Assembly: GCA_002898295.1 (NCBI GenBank)
Contig: BEHX01000012.1
Span: forward strand, 1-50,344
Source: a bacterium HR21
Lineage (GTDB): Bacteria > Bacteroidota > Ignavibacteria > Kapaibacteriales > HRBIN21
Reading direction: 5' to 3'
DNA length: 50,344 bases
Positions 2-26,385 of this stretch are shown one piece after another (position 1 is the first letter of the stretch; the number at the start of each line of letters is the position of its first letter). The position numbers and the translations under genes were made by a program. The notes below the pieces were generated by a model that had not been told where the DNA came from, ran no database searches, and was given only the letters and a program-made list of their open reading frames with translations.

Positions 2-1255
2 ACGGGGACGTATCCGAACCCGACGATAGCCAACGATGCGGTGACGAGTGCGAAGATTGCAGATGGTACAATCACCGACGCTGACATCAGCAGCAGTGCT
101 GCGATCGCGGTGAGCAAGCTTGCGCCGGGCAGCAATGATCAAGTGTTGACGACGGTTGGTGGAGTGCCGACGTGGTCGAACGTGAGCACTGTAGAGACCG
201 ACCCGCAGGTGGGAACGCTGACCAACGGGCAGATTGCCTTCTGGAGTGGGACAGCGTTGACGGGCAACAATGCGCTTTTCTGGGACAACACAAACGAGCG
301 CTTAGGAATCGGGACGAGCACTCCGCAAACGAAGCTGCACGTGCATGGCTCGGCAGTGCAGATTACAAGCAGCTCAACTGGCTCGGGGAGCACGAATGGC
401 TTCATCATCCGGCTCAACGGTACGCATGCTCAGCTCGTGCAGAACGAGAATGCGGAGATTCAGTTCCGCACGAATGCCAGCGGTGGTTCGGATACGGTCA
501 AGATGCGGCTGACCGCAGACGGGAAGCTCTTGTTCTTCGACCCGACGAACGGAGCGCAGTACCGGATTGATTTGCCGAACAACACCGCGATTGGTGTTGG
601 GCTTGCCCGTTCTCGGGGGTGGGTCCTTTACTCCTCGCAGCGCTGGAAAGAGGATATTGTGACGCTGCCCAATGCGCTGGAGACGGTGCTGCGCCTGCGT
701 GGGGTCTCCTTCCGCTGGAAGCCGGAGTACGGGGGGAACCATGATATCGGCTTCATTGCCGAGGAGGTCGGTGAGGTACTGCCCGAGGTGGTGCAGCGTG
801 ACCCGAAGACGGGCGAGTACCTGGGGATGGATTACATGCGCGTTGTCCCCGTGCTCGTGGAGGCTCTCAAGGAAGAGCATCGGCGTGTTGAGGAGCTCCG
901 CAGCGAGGTGGCGCAGCTCCGGAGCCTGGTTGAGCAGCTTGTGCGGGAGCGGGGCGAGCGTGGTGGGGGAGGTCAGGGCGTAGAGGTGCACGATGCATGG
1001 TTAGGGCAGAACATTCCGAACCCGTTTGAGGGGACGACGACGATTCCGTACTACATTCCGGCGGGTGTGAGCCGAGCGGAGTTGGTGGTACGGGACCTTG
1101 GGGGACGGGAGCTGCGGCGCATAGAGCTGAGCGAGCGTGGGGCGCATGGGCAGGTGAGGTTGGAGATGCGGCTGTTGGGGTCGGGGACGTATGAGTATGC
1201 GCTGGTGCTCGACGGGCGCGTGGTCGCCACCCGGCAAATGACCTTGGTGCGGTAA
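2..1255 (+). CDS. T9SS-exported tail-fibre-like protein with S74 chaperone domain, paralog 1 (5' truncated)
   Basis: The reading frame is open from base 2. The first visible residues (TGTYPNP) match a repeat motif inside the next gene, so the true start lies upstream of the window; the GTG at 41 is only an internal start candidate. Visible order: low-complexity Gly/Thr/Asn fibre-like repeats, a peptidase S74 (intramolecular chaperone) domain starting near base 629 with the Ser-x4-Lys arrangement SSQRWK, a short heptad-rich segment (VEELRSEVAQLRSLVEQL), a Gly-rich hinge, and a C-terminal T9SS type A sorting domain (base 988 to the end) with the NIPNPF signature. In phage tail spikes S74 domains trimerise the fibre and then cleave themselves off. 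Here the domain sits just before the sorting domain, so cleavage would separate the fibre from its sorting signal. Family assignment is strong; function is inferred. Confidence 0.85.
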   Translation, partial: TGTYPNPTIANDAVTSAKIADGTITDADISSSAAIAVSKLAPGSNDQVLTTVGGVPTWSNVSTVETDPQVGTLTNGQIAFWSGTALTGNNALFWDNTNERLGIGTSTPQTKLHVHGSAVQITSSSTGSGSTNGFIIRLNGTHAQLVQNENAEIQFRTNASGGSDTVKMRLTADGKLLFFDPTNGAQYRIDLPNNTAIGVGLARSRGWVLYSSQRWKEDIVTLPNALETVLRLRGVSFRWKPEYGGNHDIGFIAEEVGEVLPEVVQRDPKTGEYLGMDYMRVVPVLVEALKEEHRRVEELRSEVAQLRSLVEQLVRERGERGGGGQGVEVHDAWLGQNIPNPFEGTTTIPYYIPAGVSRAELVVRDLGGRELRRIELSERGAHGQVRLEMRLLGSGTYEYALVLDGRVVATRQMTLVR

Positions 1256-1272
1256 GCATGGTGCGTGCTGCT

Positions 1273-1302
1273 TCGGGGGCGGGCGCGGCAGCCTGCCCCC
1301 GA
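1273..1302 (+). terminator. GC-rich hairpin after paralog 1
   Basis: Arms 1273-1284 and 1291-1302 pair over 12 positions (one G-U in RNA) around a 6-base loop. There is no T-run behind it, so it may be a terminator of the Rho-assisted kind or simply a 3'-end stabilising hairpin. Confidence 0.4.
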
Positions 1303-1357
1303 GGCACATGCTGTGTGGTGTGTGTATGTTCCACAACAGTGCAGGAGCAGGTGAACT

Positions 1358-3682
1358 ATGAACGGCGCATGGTGGAAGACACTGGTTGCAGCTGCCGTGC
1401 TCATCGGTATGAGCGCGGTACAGGGATTGGCACAGAGCACAATTACGCTGAGCGGCTCTGGGTCGTATCTCAACTTGGCTGGCGGAGCGGAATTGCGGCT
1501 CGGTGGCTCGGCGGGGACGTCGGGGCAGCTGCTTGTCAGCAGCGGCCCGGGAGCAACCCCGGTGTGGCAATCGCCGAGCGCTCTTGGGTTGGTCAGCGGC
1601 AGCGGGGCGGCAAATCAGGTGGCATTTTGGACAGGGACGAACACGCTGGGTGGGAGTGCGAACTTTACGTGGAATGGGACGACGCTGAGTGTGACGGGCA
1701 ATGTGAGCGTGAGCGGGAACGTCACGGCGGGGCAGCTTCAGGGTCCGCTGCAGTACGGTATCACGGCGGGGACGGGGCTGACCGGTGGGACATTTAACAA
1801 CACGGGGAGTGTGACCTTCGCGTTGAGCAATACGGGGGTAACGGCGGGGACATATGGGTCAGCGACGCAGGTGGCACAGATTACAGTAGATGCACAAGGG
1901 CGGATTACGGGGGCATCGAACGTGACCATTTCTGGGGTCAGTCCTGGTGGATCGGCGGGAGGGGATTTGACGGGGACGTATCCGAACCCGACAGTGGCGC
2001 GGATTCAGGGTAATCCGGTGGCGTCGGGGACACTTGGGGCAGGGGATGCTGGGAAGGTGCTGGTGTGGGGTGGCACGCAGTGGGCAGCCACGGCTGTGAG
2101 CGGGGATGCGACGCTGAGTGGGACGGGAGTGTTGACGCTGGCAAACAGTGGGGTGACGGCGGGGACGTACGGGTCTGCTACGCAAGTTCCGGTGATCACG
2201 GTGGATGCGAAGGGGCGGATTACATCGGCGTCGAACGTGACCATTTCTGGGGTCAGTCCTGGTGGATCGGCGGGAGGGGATTTGACGGGGACGTATCCGA
2301 ACCCGACAGTGGCGCGGATTCAGGGTAATCCGGTGGCGTCGGGGACACTTGGGGCAGGGGATGCTGGGAAGGTGCTGGTGTGGGGTGGCACGCAGTGGGC
2401 AGCCACGGCTGTGAGCGGGGATGCGACGCTGAGTGGGACGGGAGTGTTGACGCTGGCAAACAGTGGGGTGACGGCGGGGACGTACGGGTCTGCTACGCAA
2501 GTTCCGGTGATCACGGTGGATGCGAAGGGGCGGGTAACAAACATCACGACGGCGGCGGTGACGGGGGACAACTGGGGAAGCCAGGTAGCACAGGTCACAG
2601 CCCCGATTACGGGGAATGGGACCAGTGGGAACCCGCTGGGATTAGCGATCAACACGACGACGCTGGCTGTGTCCGGTGGGCAGCTGACGGCGAACAACAC
2701 GAGTGCCATTTGGAATGCGAACCAGTTGCAGGGGACGCCGATTGCATCGTCGCTGTCGCCGAGCACGGGACAGGTGCTGCAGTGGGATGGCTCGCAGTGG
2801 ACAGCGGCGGGCATTGGGGCTGCCGGTGGCTGGGCAGTGGTTGGAAACGCCCTGACGAGCAATGGGAGCCTGGGCACGACGACGAACTACGCTGTCATCT
2901 TCATCACGAACAACACCGAAGCCATGCGCCTGACAACTGATCGGCGCCTGGACTTCCAGAGTGGAGCAGGTGCCTACCGCATTGACCTGCCGAACAACCC
3001 CACTGTTAGCATTGGGCGCATCCGGGCAAATGGCTATGCGACCTACTCCTCGCTCCGGTGGAAGGAGGAGCTGCGTCCGATTGAGCGTGCGCTCGATCGG
3101 GTCATGCAGCTGACGGGGTACCACTTCCGGTGGAAGCCGGAGTACGGTGGGCGGGAAGACATTGGGTTTGTGATGGAAGAGGTTGTCGGGGTGGTGCCGG
3201 AGGTGGTGGACCGGGATGAGCAGACGGGCGAGCTGTTGGGGATGGACTACGGGCGGATGACGGCGCTGCTGGTCGAGGCGCTCAAGGCACAGGTGCGGCA
3301 GCAAGAGCAGGTCAATACCGAACTGCGGCAGCGCCTGGAGCGGCTGGAGAGCCTGGTCGAGCAGCTGCTGCGGGAGCGGGGTGAGCGCGGCGGCAGCGGT
3401 GGGAGCATAGAGCTGCACGATGCGTGGCTGGGGCAGAACATTCCGAACCCGTTTGAGGGGACGACCACGATTCCGTACTACATTCCGGCTGGGGTGAGCC
3501 AGGCGGAGTTGGTCGTACGGGACCTTGGGGGACGGGAGCTGCGGCGCTTAGAGTTGAGCGAGCGTGGGGCACATGGGCAGGTGAGGTTGGAGATGCGGCT
3601 GTTGGGGTCGGGCACGTATGAGTACAGCCTGGTGCTCGACGGGCGCGTGGTTGCCACCCGGCAGATGACCTTGGTGCGGTAG
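1358..3682 (+). CDS. T9SS-exported tail-fibre-like protein with S74 chaperone domain, paralog 2
   Basis: 774 residues. The ATG at 1358 follows an AGGAG-type ribosome site and begins a clear Sec signal peptide (about residues 1-25, ending ALAQ-like GLAQ). The body is a Gly/Thr/Ser/Asn-rich repeat region typical of tail-fibre and collagen-like fibres, including a perfect internal duplication of about 101 residues (bases 1916-2218 and 2231-2533). An S74 chaperone domain follows with SSLRWKEE, GYHFRWKPEYGG and DIGFVMEEV, then a coiled coil (residues about 645-665), a Gly/Ser hinge and the T9SS type A sorting domain. The product should cross the inner membrane by Sec and the outer membrane by T9SS. 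Likely a surface fibre or adhesin; the ligand is unknown. Confidence 0.85.
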   Translation: MNGAWWKTLVAAAVLIGMSAVQGLAQSTITLSGSGSYLNLAGGAELRLGGSAGTSGQLLVSSGPGATPVWQSPSALGLVSGSGAANQVAFWTGTNTLGGSANFTWNGTTLSVTGNVSVSGNVTAGQLQGPLQYGITAGTGLTGGTFNNTGSVTFALSNTGVTAGTYGSATQVAQITVDAQGRITGASNVTISGVSPGGSAGGDLTGTYPNPTVARIQGNPVASGTLGAGDAGKVLVWGGTQWAATAVSGDATLSGTGVLTLANSGVTAGTYGSATQVPVITVDAKGRITSASNVTISGVSPGGSAGGDLTGTYPNPTVARIQGNPVASGTLGAGDAGKVLVWGGTQWAATAVSGDATLSGTGVLTLANSGVTAGTYGSATQVPVITVDAKGRVTNITTAAVTGDNWGSQVAQVTAPITGNGTSGNPLGLAINTTTLAVSGGQLTANNTSAIWNANQLQGTPIASSLSPSTGQVLQWDGSQWTAAGIGAAGGWAVVGNALTSNGSLGTTTNYAVIFITNNTEAMRLTTDRRLDFQSGAGAYRIDLPNNPTVSIGRIRANGYATYSSLRWKEELRPIERALDRVMQLTGYHFRWKPEYGGREDIGFVMEEVVGVVPEVVDRDEQTGELLGMDYGRMTALLVEALKAQVRQQEQVNTELRQRLERLESLVEQLLRERGERGGSGGSIELHDAWLGQNIPNPFEGTTTIPYYIPAGVSQAELVVRDLGGRELRRLELSERGAHGQVRLEMRLLGSGTYEYSLVLDGRVVATRQMTLVR
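1916..2533 (+). repeat. Perfect 303-bp tandem duplication inside paralog 2
   Basis: Copies at 1916-2218 and 2231-2533, offset by exactly 315 bp (105 codons), appear identical base for base by eye. The frame is kept, so the protein carries two copies of a fibre repeat containing the GGDLTGTYPNPTVARIQGNP block. The same block is cut by the left window edge in paralog 1. Confidence 0.9.
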
Positions 3683-3701
3683 CGGTTCGCGACGGTCAAG
3701 T

Positions 3702-3717
3702 CCCCCACCGGTGGGGG
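3702..3717 (+). terminator. Palindrome between paralogs 2 and 3
   Basis: CCCCCACCGGTGGGGG is a perfect palindrome lying 20 bases after the stop of paralog 2. A short T-containing stretch (GTTCTGTT) follows. A weak terminator or processing hairpin is possible. Confidence 0.4.
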
Positions 3718-3741
3718 GTTCTGTTGAGATAAGGATTGTGC

Positions 3742-6453
3742 ATGTCTCACAACCAATGGACGCCTGCAATGCGGGAAGGGAAACAGCTCGGACAGCAGTT
3801 GTTCGGACTCATGCTGGGGAGCCTGGCAGGAGCCGGTATCGCTCTATCCCAGACGACGGTGACGGGACCCGGTCCGATGAGTGTTGGGACGACGGATGCG
3901 ACGGATCTGCGGCTCCAGACCAATGGGACGACGCGGGTCTGGATTACCAGCACGGGGAATGTCGGGATTGGGACGGCAGCACCTGCAACGCTTCTCCATG
4001 TTGCTGGAGCGACGACACTGGGAGGGAATCTCACCGTGAATGGCTCGACAGTGACCCTTTCGGGAATTCCAGGGGGGTCTTTGGCGACAGATGTACTGGT
4101 GCGGACCGGTAGTGGTGCAGTGGAGTATCGTTCTGCCAGCGGGCTAGTGGGGAGCTTAGCATGGTTGCTCGGTGGGAACACACTGACCAGTACGCAATCC
4201 CTTGGGACTGTGAGCAACCATGACCTTCCAATTATCACCAACAACGTTGAGCGGGTCCGGATTACGGCCACGGGCAACGTGGGGATTGGTACATCAACAC
4301 CTGCGCAACGGCTCCACGTTGTTGGGAACATCCAGTTTACTGGTGCTCTGATGCCGGCGGGAGCCGCTGGGACTGCCGGGCAGGTACTCGTCTCGCAGGG
4401 TGGCGCTGCAGCACCGCAGTGGTGGACAATCACCGATGATGGGACTGGAACGGTTGTGGTGACACCCGCTAGCGGACAGATAACCATTGGCGCATTGAAT
4501 AACAACGCTATCTGGAATGCAAACCGTCTCCAGGGAAACAACGTGAGTAGTACGCCACCGGCAGCAAACCAGGTGCTGGCGTGGGATGCCATGAGCAACT
4601 CCTGGACTCCGAAGTCGCTGGGGAGCTTGGGGGCAGTGACCGGGACGGGGACGGCGAACCGGTTGGTGCGGTGGACGGGGACAAGTACAGTGGGGAACGG
4701 AAGTCTGGACGATGACGGGAATGGAGTACTGAGCCGAGCGGGGAACATTGCGATCAATCCGGGGGCAGGCAACACGTTGTCGACCAATGGGAACTTCAGT
4801 GCGGCGGGGACGGGGACATTTGGCGGGCAGCTGACGGTCAGCAGTGGAGGGGCAGCGATTACGGGGAATGTGTCGGTGACGGGCAACATCACGGCGACGG
4901 GGAATCTGACGGTGAATGGCAACACGACGTTGGGTACTGGGGCAAGTAACACTGTGACAATCAATGCTGGGACGGTGACAGCGGCGAATTTGCCGGCGGG
5001 AACGAGTAATGATTTCGTTGTCCGAGGCGCCGGTGGTGTGCTGCAGGTGCGGACAGTGACTGGGATGGTAACCGGGACGGGGACGGCGAACCGGTTGGTG
5101 CGGTGGACGAGCTCGAGCACGATTGGGGATGGGAGTTTGGATGACAATGGGTCAGGGACGTTGAGCCGGGCGGGGAACATTGCGATCAATCCGGGGGCAG
5201 GCAACACGTTGTCGACCAATGGGAACTTCAGTGCGGCGGGGACGGGGACATTTGGCGGGCAGCTGACGGTCAGCAGTGGAGGGGCAGCGATTACGGGGAA
5301 TGTGTCGGTGGCGGGCAACATCACGGCGACGGGGAATCTGACGGTGAATGGTAACACGACGTTGGGGGATGCGGCGACGGACCAGGTGACGATCAACGCG
5401 GCGGCGGTCCAGGTGCCGAACATCCCGTCGAGCTCGACGGCGATGCAGGTGGTGATGCGGGAGTCGAACGAGTTGAGGTTGCGCTCAGCATTGGATCCTA
5501 TTTGGAATGCGAACCAGTTGCAGGGCTTCGATGTGAGCTCTGCTGTACCTTCTGCAGGGAATATCCTGGTCTGGAACGCCGTGACGTCAGAGTGGGAGCC
5601 GAACCCGGTGACGGTGGCAGGTGCCTGGAGTGTCAATGGGAATCCGGGGACAGATCCGACGTTCAACTTCCTTGGCACCACGGATGACCAGCCACTTATC
5701 ATCAAGACGAACGGGACGGAGCGGATGCGGATTGCGAACTCGACGAACAACGGCTATGTGGGCATTGGGGTCACAGCCCCTGCCTTCCGGTTGGAACTCC
5801 CCAACATTGCGAACCCTGCTGGACGTGGTCGAGCAAACTCGTGGCTGACCTATTCCTCGCTGCGCTGGAAGGAGGACATCCGCCCCCTGGAGAATGCACT
5901 GGACAAAGTCATGCAGCTGCAGGGGTATTCTTTCCGTTGGAAGCCGGAGTACGGCGGCACACCGGACATCGGCTTCCTCGCCGAAGAGGTTGCCCGTGTC
6001 GTGCCGGAGGTTGTGAGCTACGAGCCTGACGGGCAAGTTGCAGGCATGGACTACAGCCGCCTGGTTGCTCTGCTGGTCGAGGCTGTCAAGGAGCAGCAAC
6101 GGGAGATCGCCCAGCTCCGTGGGCTGGTCGAGCAGCTGCTGCGGGAGCGGGGTGAGCGGGGCGGCAGCGGTGGGAGCATAGAGCTGCACGATGCGTGGTT
6201 AGGGCAGAACATTCCGAACCCGTTTGAGGGGACGACCACGATTCCGTACTACATTCCGGCTGGGGTGAGCCGGGCGGAGTTGGTGGTGCGGGACCTTGGG
6301 GGACGGGAGCTGCGGCGCTTAGAGTTGAGCGAGCGTGGGGCACATGGGCAGGTGAGGTTGGAGATGCGGCTGTTGGGGTCGGGCACGTATGAGTACAGCC
6401 TGGTGCTCGACGGGCGCGTGGTCGCCACCCGGCAGATGACCTTGGTGCGGTAG
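3742..6453 (+). CDS. T9SS-exported tail-fibre-like protein with S74 chaperone domain, paralog 3
   Basis: 903 residues. I prefer the ATG at 3742 (purine-rich GAGATAAGGA just upstream) over the TTG at 3736. The N-terminus holds a long signal peptide (MSHNQW... to IALSQ). Repeats of the type GNVGIGT(S/A)xP and TGNxTxxGNLTVNGNTTL follow, with a 296-bp imperfect repeat at 4639-4934 and 5071-5366. The S74 domain starts near base 5851 (SSLRWKEDI, then FRWKPEYGG and DIGFLAEEV), followed by a short coiled coil and the T9SS type A domain from base 6186. Compared with paralog 2 the fibre part is longer and mostly different in sequence, while the last 268 bases are nearly the same. Probably a surface fibre; no substrate can be read from the sequence. 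Confidence 0.85.
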   Translation: MSHNQWTPAMREGKQLGQQLFGLMLGSLAGAGIALSQTTVTGPGPMSVGTTDATDLRLQTNGTTRVWITSTGNVGIGTAAPATLLHVAGATTLGGNLTVNGSTVTLSGIPGGSLATDVLVRTGSGAVEYRSASGLVGSLAWLLGGNTLTSTQSLGTVSNHDLPIITNNVERVRITATGNVGIGTSTPAQRLHVVGNIQFTGALMPAGAAGTAGQVLVSQGGAAAPQWWTITDDGTGTVVVTPASGQITIGALNNNAIWNANRLQGNNVSSTPPAANQVLAWDAMSNSWTPKSLGSLGAVTGTGTANRLVRWTGTSTVGNGSLDDDGNGVLSRAGNIAINPGAGNTLSTNGNFSAAGTGTFGGQLTVSSGGAAITGNVSVTGNITATGNLTVNGNTTLGTGASNTVTINAGTVTAANLPAGTSNDFVVRGAGGVLQVRTVTGMVTGTGTANRLVRWTSSSTIGDGSLDDNGSGTLSRAGNIAINPGAGNTLSTNGNFSAAGTGTFGGQLTVSSGGAAITGNVSVAGNITATGNLTVNGNTTLGDAATDQVTINAAAVQVPNIPSSSTAMQVVMRESNELRLRSALDPIWNANQLQGFDVSSAVPSAGNILVWNAVTSEWEPNPVTVAGAWSVNGNPGTDPTFNFLGTTDDQPLIIKTNGTERMRIANSTNNGYVGIGVTAPAFRLELPNIANPAGRGRANSWLTYSSLRWKEDIRPLENALDKVMQLQGYSFRWKPEYGGTPDIGFLAEEVARVVPEVVSYEPDGQVAGMDYSRLVALLVEAVKEQQREIAQLRGLVEQLLRERGERGGSGGSIELHDAWLGQNIPNPFEGTTTIPYYIPAGVSRAELVVRDLGGRELRRLELSERGAHGQVRLEMRLLGSGTYEYSLVLDGRVVATRQMTLVR
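4639..5366 (+). repeat. Imperfect 296-bp direct repeat inside paralog 3
   Basis: Copies at 4639-4934 and 5071-5366 (offset 432 bp, 144 codons) are almost identical except for a block of about 60 bases near 4675-4735 in the first copy. The patchy pattern suggests duplication with later local divergence or gene conversion. Confidence 0.85.
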
Positions 6454-23874: not shown

Positions 23875-26385
23875 CTACCGCTGGAGGAGAAGCGGGATGG
23901 TATACCACTCCGTTCCAAGCTGGAGGCGCAGCCAGTAGGGGCCGGAAGCACACGGCTGCCCGGTGTCTGTCCGCCCATCCCAGAGCAGCATCCCAGTGGA
24001 GCCTGTGCCGGTACGCAACCGACGCACGGGCTTCCCCTCGGTGCTGACGATCACGGCGTGCTGTAGCCTGATATTTTCAGGTACTTCGTACGCAATCACC
24101 ACCTGCTCTGTTGCCGGGATCGGCGCAACTCGTAGCCGAACCCCTGCAGGGAGCCTCTCGCGGATTCCAACGCCCTGCTTGCCAACGCCGCGGAGAGCAA
24201 CGCGGGTACTGTCCCGGTGGAAGCGTCCGGCGTAGATGAGGATGAGCTCCTGTTGGGAGAGACCTTCCACGAGAGGTGCGAAGCGGAGTGTCAGCTCCAG
24301 GCTCTGCCCTGAATCCAGTGTCAGCGGTGTCTGAGGTGGGTCAACGAGACTGAAGGGGGGCGCTGCCGAGATGCTCAGGCGCAGCTCCTTGAGGGTGACG
24401 GGGAGCGGTCCGGGATTGGTCAGCTGGAGCGACAGCTGACGGCTTTTGCCCAGCTCAACAGTGTCGAAGTCCAGAAGATCTGTCGAGGCACGCAGCTGGG
24501 GCAGTGCTCCGCTCCCACGCAACAGGAGCGACGGGGGCGAGCTCACATTGGCGGTGAACTGTACCGATGCTGTGCGCTCGCCGAGTGCCGATGGGATAAA
24601 GGCCAGCACGAGGGTCCGCTCCTGCTGCGGAGCCAGTGTGAACGAGCCGCCCCCGCTGAGGAGACGGAAGTCGGCAGCATGAGCGCCGCTGAGGGTAACC
24701 GCTGTGACCCGCAGGGTATCCTCCCCGGCATTGTAGAGAACCCCGTGGAGTTCGACGGCAGTACTATCGCCAAGCTCCAGCGTTCCGAACTCCACCGTGG
24801 ACTGTCGGAGTGCCAACACGGGCTGTCCTGGCTGGGTCACGGTCAGCTGGGCAACCTGGCTTATGGTCTGTCCACACCCGTTCCAGACCAGACAATCGTA
24901 CCCGCCGGCGTCGGAGAGCTGGACAGAAGCGATCGTGTAGGTGGGCTGTACTGCGCCGGCAATGGGGACCCCATTTTTCCGCCACTGGTACTGGAGCTCG
25001 GCTCCCTGTGCCTCTACACGGAAGGTCACCGACTGCCCGACGCGCACGCTCTGCGATTGCGGATGCTGCACGATCACAGGTGGTTCTCCAACAGTGAGCC
25101 GGACCTGGGAGCTGTACGCGGGGGGCTCGCAGTCACCGGAGACGACAACGTCATAGAAGCCGGAATCTGTCGGTTGGACAGCTGCAATCGTGTAGGTTGC
25201 CTCTGTTGCTCCCTGGATGGGGGTTCCATTCTTGCGCCATTGGTAGCGGAGGTTAGAACCCGTTGCCGTGACACGGAAGACGGCCCGCTGCCCGGCGCAG
25301 ACTGTCAGCGGCTGCGGTTGCTGCGTAATGCGGGGGCGTTCCTTGACCGTGAGGCGGACCGTATCGCTGGTCGTTGAGCCACAGGCATTGCTGACGACGA
25401 CATCATAGACACCGGCAGCGCTCGGAGTAGCAACGAACTGGTACGTTGCCGTTGTGGCGCCAGGGATATTCTGTCCGTTGAGCCGCCATTGGTAGCTCAG
25501 CCCTGAGCCTTGGGCAGAGACGCTCAGCGTCACGCTGGTCCCCTCGCAGACCGGCTGCAGGGGTTGAGGGTGTTGGGTAATCTGCGGGGGACCGCTGATG
25601 GAGAAGTTCCCATCACTGACATCGAAGAGCTGAGCATCGGCAGCATCGACGATGCGGATGCGGTACTGTGAGCCAGGCGGTTGATTTGCTGGAATAGACC
25701 AGCTCCAGCTCCCCGCCGATGCCGGAACGTTCGTTGCCAAGGTTGTCCAGCTCTGCCCACCGTTTGCGGAGAGTTCAATGGTGACGTTGTCTACCCCGAC
25801 GCTGTTCCAGCGGATTGTCTTCGTGCTCCCAGCGCACCATGTCTCGCCGCCGTTGGGTTCCAGCACAGTGATCCCGGCAACGGTCAGCGTCACCGGGGAG
25901 AGGAAGTTCCAGAAGTCCCCCGAATTGTTCCCGTTGTTGTTGACGGCGTTGCCAGCAGCGCGGAGTGTGTAGAGCCCTGGGGTGCTCGGGGCAGTCCAAC
26001 TGAAGCTGAAGGCAGCCTGTCCATTGCTCATCGTTTTAGGCTGCGTGTGGGTCAGCTCGCCGTTCGAGAGCTGCAGACCAGAGCCCGATGCCGGACTAAG
26101 GCTTCCGGCGTTCTGTCCTGACTGATTGTGGACAGCAATGTCGATACCGGCGGCTTGTTGCGAGCTGTGGGCAACGATGACGGTCAACGTAAGCGTCTGC
26201 CCCGGACGAGTCCGAAAGCTCCCGCTCCCACTTTGGGCTGTCAACGTGGTGCTTGAGCTCGGAGTAGAGCCGTGGCAGGTACAGCCGGTTTGCGTTACCC
26301 CCGTGATTCCCGAGGGGTAGCCCAGAGAAGGTACGGAGCTGGCAAGTCCTCCGAAGAGCCCAAGGAGGAGAAGTCTGTACCGCAT
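23875..26385 (-). CDS. Large Ig-repeat surface protein with choice-of-anchor V domain and T9SS sorting domain
   Basis: 836 residues. Signal peptide (about 1-22), then a choice-of-anchor V (Reeler-like) domain that opens with TGCTCHGSTPS (about 34-44). Next come a Kre9/KNH-like domain (PNGGETWCAGSTKTIRW), three Ig-like repeats with the YQWRxNG core (about 275-540), two ASH/choice-of-anchor D-type domains (VEFGTLELGDS and LLDFDTVELGKS) and a T9SS type A module (VPENIRLQHAVIVSTEGKPV). The CxCH of the first domain is not a standard CxxCH heme site. A secreted or surface-attached structural protein; it closes the minus-strand envelope operon, 26 bases after the Rieske gene. Confidence 0.85.
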   Translation of the reverse strand: MRYRLLLLGLFGGLASSVPSLGYPSGITGVTQTGCTCHGSTPSSSTTLTAQSGSGSFRTRPGQTLTLTVIVAHSSQQAAGIDIAVHNQSGQNAGSLSPASGSGLQLSNGELTHTQPKTMSNGQAAFSFSWTAPSTPGLYTLRAAGNAVNNNGNNSGDFWNFLSPVTLTVAGITVLEPNGGETWCAGSTKTIRWNSVGVDNVTIELSANGGQSWTTLATNVPASAGSWSWSIPANQPPGSQYRIRIVDAADAQLFDVSDGNFSISGPPQITQHPQPLQPVCEGTSVTLSVSAQGSGLSYQWRLNGQNIPGATTATYQFVATPSAAGVYDVVVSNACGSTTSDTVRLTVKERPRITQQPQPLTVCAGQRAVFRVTATGSNLRYQWRKNGTPIQGATEATYTIAAVQPTDSGFYDVVVSGDCEPPAYSSQVRLTVGEPPVIVQHPQSQSVRVGQSVTFRVEAQGAELQYQWRKNGVPIAGAVQPTYTIASVQLSDAGGYDCLVWNGCGQTISQVAQLTVTQPGQPVLALRQSTVEFGTLELGDSTAVELHGVLYNAGEDTLRVTAVTLSGAHAADFRLLSGGGSFTLAPQQERTLVLAFIPSALGERTASVQFTANVSSPPSLLLRGSGALPQLRASTDLLDFDTVELGKSRQLSLQLTNPGPLPVTLKELRLSISAAPPFSLVDPPQTPLTLDSGQSLELTLRFAPLVEGLSQQELILIYAGRFHRDSTRVALRGVGKQGVGIRERLPAGVRLRVAPIPATEQVVIAYEVPENIRLQHAVIVSTEGKPVRRLRTGTGSTGMLLWDGRTDTGQPCASGPYWLRLQLGTEWYTIPLLLQR

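Follow-up and report, generated by a model that had tools for sequence, protein, structure and literature searches.

Background

Self-cutting by a Peptidase_S74 domain (PF13884) is described for phage proteins and for MyRF, in both of which the cut follows trimerisation (PMC4690869, PMC8326128) and in the latter of which the Ser/Lys catalytic dyad has been proven experimentally (PMC8326128). The closest known system is that of the S74-type mosaic adhesive trimer (MAT) fibres of Bdellovibrio, which act as adhesins: Bd3182 of Bdellovibrio bacteriovorus, a bacterial S74 fibre, cuts at its Ser and its Ser-to-Ala mutant stays uncut, and the type IX secretion system (T9SS) is left unmentioned in that work (PMC10769870). 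Here we analyse a stretch of 50,344 nt (hereafter the window), which is the entire contig BEHX01000012.1 (C12) of the hot-spring bacterium HR21 (Candidatus Kapabacteria, Bacteroidota; genome of 1.83 Mb over 17 contigs), and which carries three tandem genes on the forward strand (2-1255, 1358-3682 and 3736-6453; all reading frames open) whose products (P0001, P0002 and P0003) share one domain order: fibre repeats, S74 domain, coiled coil and C-terminal T9SS sorting domain. With a probable self-cutting domain placed directly before the export signal, the cell has to solve the order in which such proteins are folded, cut and exported.

Conservation of the catalytic dyad

The S74 domains of P0001 (632-793; Ser codon 632-634, Lys codon 647-649), P0002 (3047-3208; Ser codon 3047-3049, Lys codon 3062-3064) and P0003 (5854-6015; Ser codon 5854-5856, Lys codon 5869-5871) match PF13884 with E-values of 5.7e-15, 1e-10 and 1.9e-15 (55.8, 42.2 and 57.3 bits; cut-off 22 bits). 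Each begins, directly behind a Tyr, with a Ser-x4-Lys motif (SSQRWK, SSLRWK and SSLRWK, respectively), in which the first Ser aligns with MyRF S587, a position occupied by Ala in the construct that was crystallised, and the Lys corresponds to K592. The initial annotation, which had proposed the three-gene architecture at these coordinates and the Ser-x4-Lys layout, is borne out by the open frames, the family matches and this alignment, and no dismantling of the active site common to all three is apparent from the sequence. The invariant Gly of the family and the Arg at position 8 are likewise present. In seven aligned members of the clade an invariant Arg lies eight residues ahead of the Ser; the folding-sensor Arg of T5, Arg1250, which comes from a neighbouring subunit, sits 14 before. 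In line with this assignment, an AlphaFold2 (AF2) model of the end of P0003 (predicted local distance difference test, pLDDT, of about 90 over S74; coiled-coil helix at model residues 92-128) resembles the ICA domain of MyRF (7dc3, chain 7dc3_B: Foldseek E 8.5e-6; Z 9.2 over 112 residues, 2.7 Å), the AF2 models being of monomers, in which a trimeric active site is not visible.

S74 genes were gathered from 61 relatives and, in addition, from 296 genomes spread over the phylum, and the dyad residues were counted over 202 complete S74 domains. Ser and Lys are intact in all 42 proteins that fuse fibre, S74 and sorting domain (over several families), and in 146 of the 149 that have a fibre and an S74 domain without a sorting domain. 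Among fibre-less S74 proteins with a sorting domain both residues are kept in 0/5, the Ser being lost from every one of them (Ala-Lys in two, Glu-Arg in three). This distribution disfavours the option, raised in the initial annotation, of an inactive S74 domain. The five fibre-less genes form one clade (support 98), in which the dyad was lost on the same branch as the fibre, and a ratio of non-synonymous to synonymous substitution (dN/dS) of 0.15-0.32 over S74 and coiled coil (pairs with estimable dS) points to purifying selection and speaks against their being pseudogenes. As MyRF and T5 retain their folding when the Ser is changed to Ala (PMC8326128, PMC4690869), the Ser is dispensable for folding; because in this clade it persists in genes with a fibre and has gone from those without one, we consider it likely, on the strength of these sequence comparisons, that the S74 domain of the fused proteins cuts in the cell.

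The same counts bear on a reading in which S74 is an uncut trimerisation chaperone, the fibre staying attached to the surface through S74 and coiled coil after PorU has removed the sorting domain. Such a reading would resolve the conflict with the T9SS signal, finds a counterpart in the P22 tailspike, whose autochaperone is uncut (as cited in PMC4690869), and could draw on an Asp-to-Ser change beside the catalytic Ser (see below). We hold it to be quite improbable, since all 42 fused genes retain both Ser and Lys and genes with nothing to cut have lost the Ser, and since the folding of the MyRF and T5 mutants means that the Ser must be kept for more than folding (PMC8326128, PMC4690869).

Split gene pairs

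The fibre-less module of S74 and sorting domain was found in five genomes (the source genome included), and in 5/5 of them its gene overlaps, or directly adjoins, the 3' end of a long gene whose fibre product lacks both S74 and sorting domain (576-5108 at L253, the pair of the source genome; 8099-9526 at L255; 1792-5754 at L256; 3-5906 at L257; 2-1297 at L258). Such a pair matches the two products expected from the cutting of a fused gene, which suggests that the two parts are intended to exist as separate chains. At their ends the split fibres carry another kind of domain, tip-like and with weak similarity to the tips of phage and Bdellovibrio fibres; its AF2 model is of low confidence (mean pLDDT 66), with weak matches such as that to Bd2439 (8ol4, E 0.05). 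The long fibre at L256 contains four beta-roll stretches (LbR_Ice_bind, E 1.6e-7) reminiscent of the heads of trimeric adhesins.

In the source genome the split pair lies at the end of contig C11, and its catalytic Ser is replaced by Ala. In G000, the fibre-less gene is followed by a gene for a fibre that is interrupted by the contig end and whose repeats resemble the start of the window (93% over 156 nt), and in G003 the fibre-less gene stands beside a TonB receptor and ubiE, which are the genes that follow the array in the window. Because of this repeat likeness and this gene order we take C11 and C12 to be neighbours: the two contigs probably adjoin, and across the predicted junction the locus would read S74-less fibre, dead S74 with sorting domain, three fused fibres and TonB receptor. 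An S74 paralogue devoid of the C-terminal domain (the L004 clade) was rejected as a partner of the dead S74 protein, some relatives having a gene of that clade without a dead S74 gene.

Order of folding, cutting and export

The mechanism that we favour, and to which as a whole we accord an almost even chance, is that of secreted trimeric fibres whose C-terminal module is a folding and export device with a late-cutting S74 domain. On the assumption that it is accurate, the fibres would be secreted, trimeric and adhesin- or matrix-like; the coiled coil and S74 would gather three chains into a folded fibre; export of the protein through the T9SS (SprA, PorV and PorU are encoded) would fall to the sorting domain; and the Ser-Lys dyad would then cut the Tyr-Ser bond ahead of S74, during or after export, leaving the mature fibre and a piece of S74 and coiled coil (with or without the sorting domain) as separate chains. 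We infer trimerisation and cleavage of the window proteins from their homologues, and likewise infer the timing of the cut and the fate of the fibre (release, or docking on the S74 base). Work on T5 points to release once the cut has been made (PMC4690869), in support of a late cut.

Several points weigh against this mechanism. Cleavage and trimer formation are predictions for the proteins of the window, and trimers forming in the periplasm would entail the loss of the sorting domain before export. The dyad was lost once in evolution, so that the absence of intact dyads from all five fibre-less genes amounts to one independent observation, and in short fibre-less S74 proteins without a sorting domain, from outside the order, Ser and Lys are kept in 4/6 (the four include one frameshifted fibre gene). 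Moreover, the residue after the catalytic Ser is Ser here, as against the Asp described as conserved in the MYRF family. This Asp is also absent from members of the same clade without a sorting domain; Asp or Ser following the catalytic Ser is found both with and without a sorting domain, the residue preceding the catalytic Ser varies, and a comparison of S74 domains with and without a sorting domain revealed no clear sequence difference that might delay cutting.

The split pairs favour a piece that acts in trans, as a chain apart from the fibre, an option beyond the two named in the initial annotation (an inactive domain, or cleavage after secretion). S74 might cut in the periplasm at trimer formation, with the trimer of S74, coiled coil and sorting domain staying bound and carrying the fibre through the T9SS; at split pairs the same sled would be a separate gene product, and the protease would not be needed. 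We regard this as doubtful. It accounts for the overlap, in 5/5 genomes, of a signal-less fibre gene with a fibre-less S74 and sorting gene in which Ser is changed to Ala or Glu, it fits the purifying selection on the dead S74 and coiled coil, and its timing is simpler than that of delayed cutting; however, the binding of a separate S74 piece to the fibre is a prediction, chaperone and fibre of T5 share a weak interface and have to part (PMC4690869), and the different tip-like domain of the split fibres may fold without help from S74. We likewise judge it unlikely that the module of S74, coiled coil and sorting domain is in general a secretion carrier acting in trans, a trimeric sled by which a fibre with no covalent link to it (or no longer any) is docked or folded for T9SS export, the fused genes yielding this sled by self-cutting and the split pairs providing it as a protease-dead protein from an overlapping gene. 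Gingipain fragments are held together non-covalently on a T9SS-sorted piece; to our knowledge, a T9SS signal given in trans to a trimeric fibre would be new.

Which order applies, late cutting or another, would reveal in what state the T9SS exports such fibres, be it as assembled trimers, as unassembled chains or as non-covalent complexes, and the natural fused and split pairs, with the Ser intact or lost, make this question testable by single-residue changes. The system would also show how Bacteroidota made secreted surface or matrix fibres from phage-type fibre parts.

The sorting domain and the secretion machinery

The sorting domains of P0001 (1001-1252), P0002 (3428-3679; DNA 97.6% identical to that of P0003) and P0003 (6199-6450) yielded no match to PF18962 (E≤1) or to NCBIfam. 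Despite this silence, the T9SS type A label given in the initial annotation stands, and a mislabelled domain is countered by orthologue, profile and fold: the orthologue in G041 exceeds the PF18962 cut-off (27.1 against 27), the S74-linked sorting domains match the other sorting domains of the genome in a profile-profile comparison (hhalign, probability 97.3, E 2.7e-11), and the AF2 model of the domain in P0003 is a seven-stranded Ig-like sandwich similar to the C-terminal domains of PorU (6za2, Z 9.0) and mirolase (8qb1, Z 8.2, 25% identity), with other Ig-like folds giving similar scores. Further large open reading frames (ORFs) in the genome have ends that the S74-linked profile hits too (E 6e-8 to 1e-6), and the genome contains 13 PF18962-like places. 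The T9SS genes detected by profile comprise SprA (E 1.2e-42), PorU (710 bits) and PorV (294.8 bits), PorU adjoining PorV.

The three sorting domains and that of the dead S74 gene (5698-5950 at L253) share 89-98% DNA identity (77-95% at third positions), whereas the S74 domains of the same four genes are near saturation (third positions about 50%), which points to an exchange of the 3' end, by gene conversion or as a cassette. Elsewhere in the window (23875-26385, reverse strand), an 836-aa protein with several Ig-like domains has an end that weakly matches the S74-type sorting-domain profile (E 0.02).

Layout and surroundings of the array

P0001 (2-1255) is visible over 417 aa, its 5' end being lost at the contig edge together with the N-terminus; P0002 (1358-3682; 774 aa) has GDLTGTYPNPT-type repeats and a putative Sec signal peptide, MNGAWWKTLVAAAVLIGMSAVQGLAQ, read by eye; and P0003 (3736-6453) spans at most 905 aa from a TTG at 3736, the ATG at 3769 being the likelier start, from which a plausible Sec signal peptide was also seen by eye. 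Tail-fibre profiles of PHROG align to residues 28-314 of P0001, up to the coiled coil and ending before the sorting domain, which suggests that the sorting domain was appended to an end of phage-like type. Between P0002 and P0003 there is a hairpin resembling a terminator (3701-3718), a type of structure not above its chance number.

Behind the array come the genes for the TonB receptor and ubiE; further neighbours encode an ABC transporter and a phosphoribosyltransferase, and the relative G003 retains this chromosomal gene order. A remnant of a prophage or contractile injection system was rejected on account of these neighbours and their conserved order; no phage genes other than the fibre-like ones were seen in the examined stretch.

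Distribution of the S74 and sorting domain pair

A sorting domain is present in 49 of the 217 S74 frames collected (among the matches listed), and the pair occurs in at least 16 of the 27 S74-bearing genomes sampled in the order and in at least 7 of the 65 outside it. Relatives that match the C-terminal module are metagenome-assembled genomes (MAGs) of Candidatus Kapabacteria/Kapaibacterium and MAGs labelled Chlorobiota or Bacteroidota. This search, which the initial annotation had proposed, shows the pair to recur across the phylum and dismisses the notion of a unique fusion; what had there been termed unusual is therefore not so in its occurrence, and is so in the literature, where our search found no description of S74 with T9SS, nor any paper joining 'endosialidase' and 'T9SS'. 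As far as that search reached, the pairing is an undescribed variant of S74 fibres.

Traced on an S74 tree for the order, the sorting domain shows 12 changes of state, at least six of which are forced by starred branches and none of which affected the dyad. A recent loss is seen in the fused gene L071 (G004), where a frameshift removed the sorting domain, remnants of which can be read out of frame past the stop. Conceivably, the sorting domain disposes of or displays the cut-off chaperone, the fibre using another route, as S74 fibres without a sorting domain must. Many S74 fibres, that at C4:117719 of the source genome (L004) included, indeed have a signal peptide and no sorting domain; this reading offers no strong reason for the repeated gain of the sorting domain, the other route was not identified, and we deem it very improbable.

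Together with L015, L017, L020 and L055, L004 represents an S74 fibre without a sorting domain that is conserved in the genus. Other arrangements were encountered as well: proteins of about 150-200 aa with signal peptide, S74 and coiled coil and neither fibre nor sorting domain (L183, L166, L208 and L214; Ser lost in 2/4), bacterial genes in which S74 and coiled coil are followed by a hydrophobic C-terminal segment resembling a membrane helix, in a MYRF-like order (L115 and L195), and, in another family of the order, small proteins in which a signal peptide is joined to a short coiled coil and a sorting domain and from which S74 is absent (L275 and L277).

Comparison with known systems

With the Bdellovibrio MATs, the proteins of the window share a bacterial origin, a signal peptide (putative in the window proteins), a long beta fibre (trimeric in MATs), membership of a chromosomal multigene family with S74 and non-S74 members, and the S74 dyad towards the C-terminus (in MATs of the form S(D)xxxK). 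Unlike them, MATs end at S74, with no sorting domain or split S74 partner described, and the S74 cut is demonstrated in MATs whereas in the window proteins it is predicted. In MATs the signal peptide is followed by a conserved, beta-rich domain of about 130 aa, and the fibre carries a variable tip, of S74 or another type. The phage endosialidase and T5 pb1 chaperones (PF13884) have in common with the window proteins the S74 fold, the Ser-x4-Lys motif, the coiled coil at the end and the fibre upstream; they end at that coiled coil, whereas the window proteins continue into a T9SS sorting domain, so that a cut would remove the export signal too, and the long fibre-embracing tentacle of K1F and T5 is not evident in the window protein model (which has a short loop). 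MYRF/MrfA resemble them in a mid-protein S74 domain with a localisation module behind it, the cut (predicted in the window proteins) parting an N-terminal trimer from its anchor; in MYRF/MrfA a membrane helix does the anchoring and a transcription factor is the product, whereas here these places are taken by a sorting domain and a fibre. Finally, the window proteins agree with T9SS type A cargo (PF18962) in their putative N-terminal signal peptide, in their C-terminal Ig-like sorting domain and in the presence of SprA, PorU and PorV in the genome, and differ from it in having a predicted self-cleaving domain directly before the sorting domain, through which the signal could be lost by autoproteolysis instead of by PorU.

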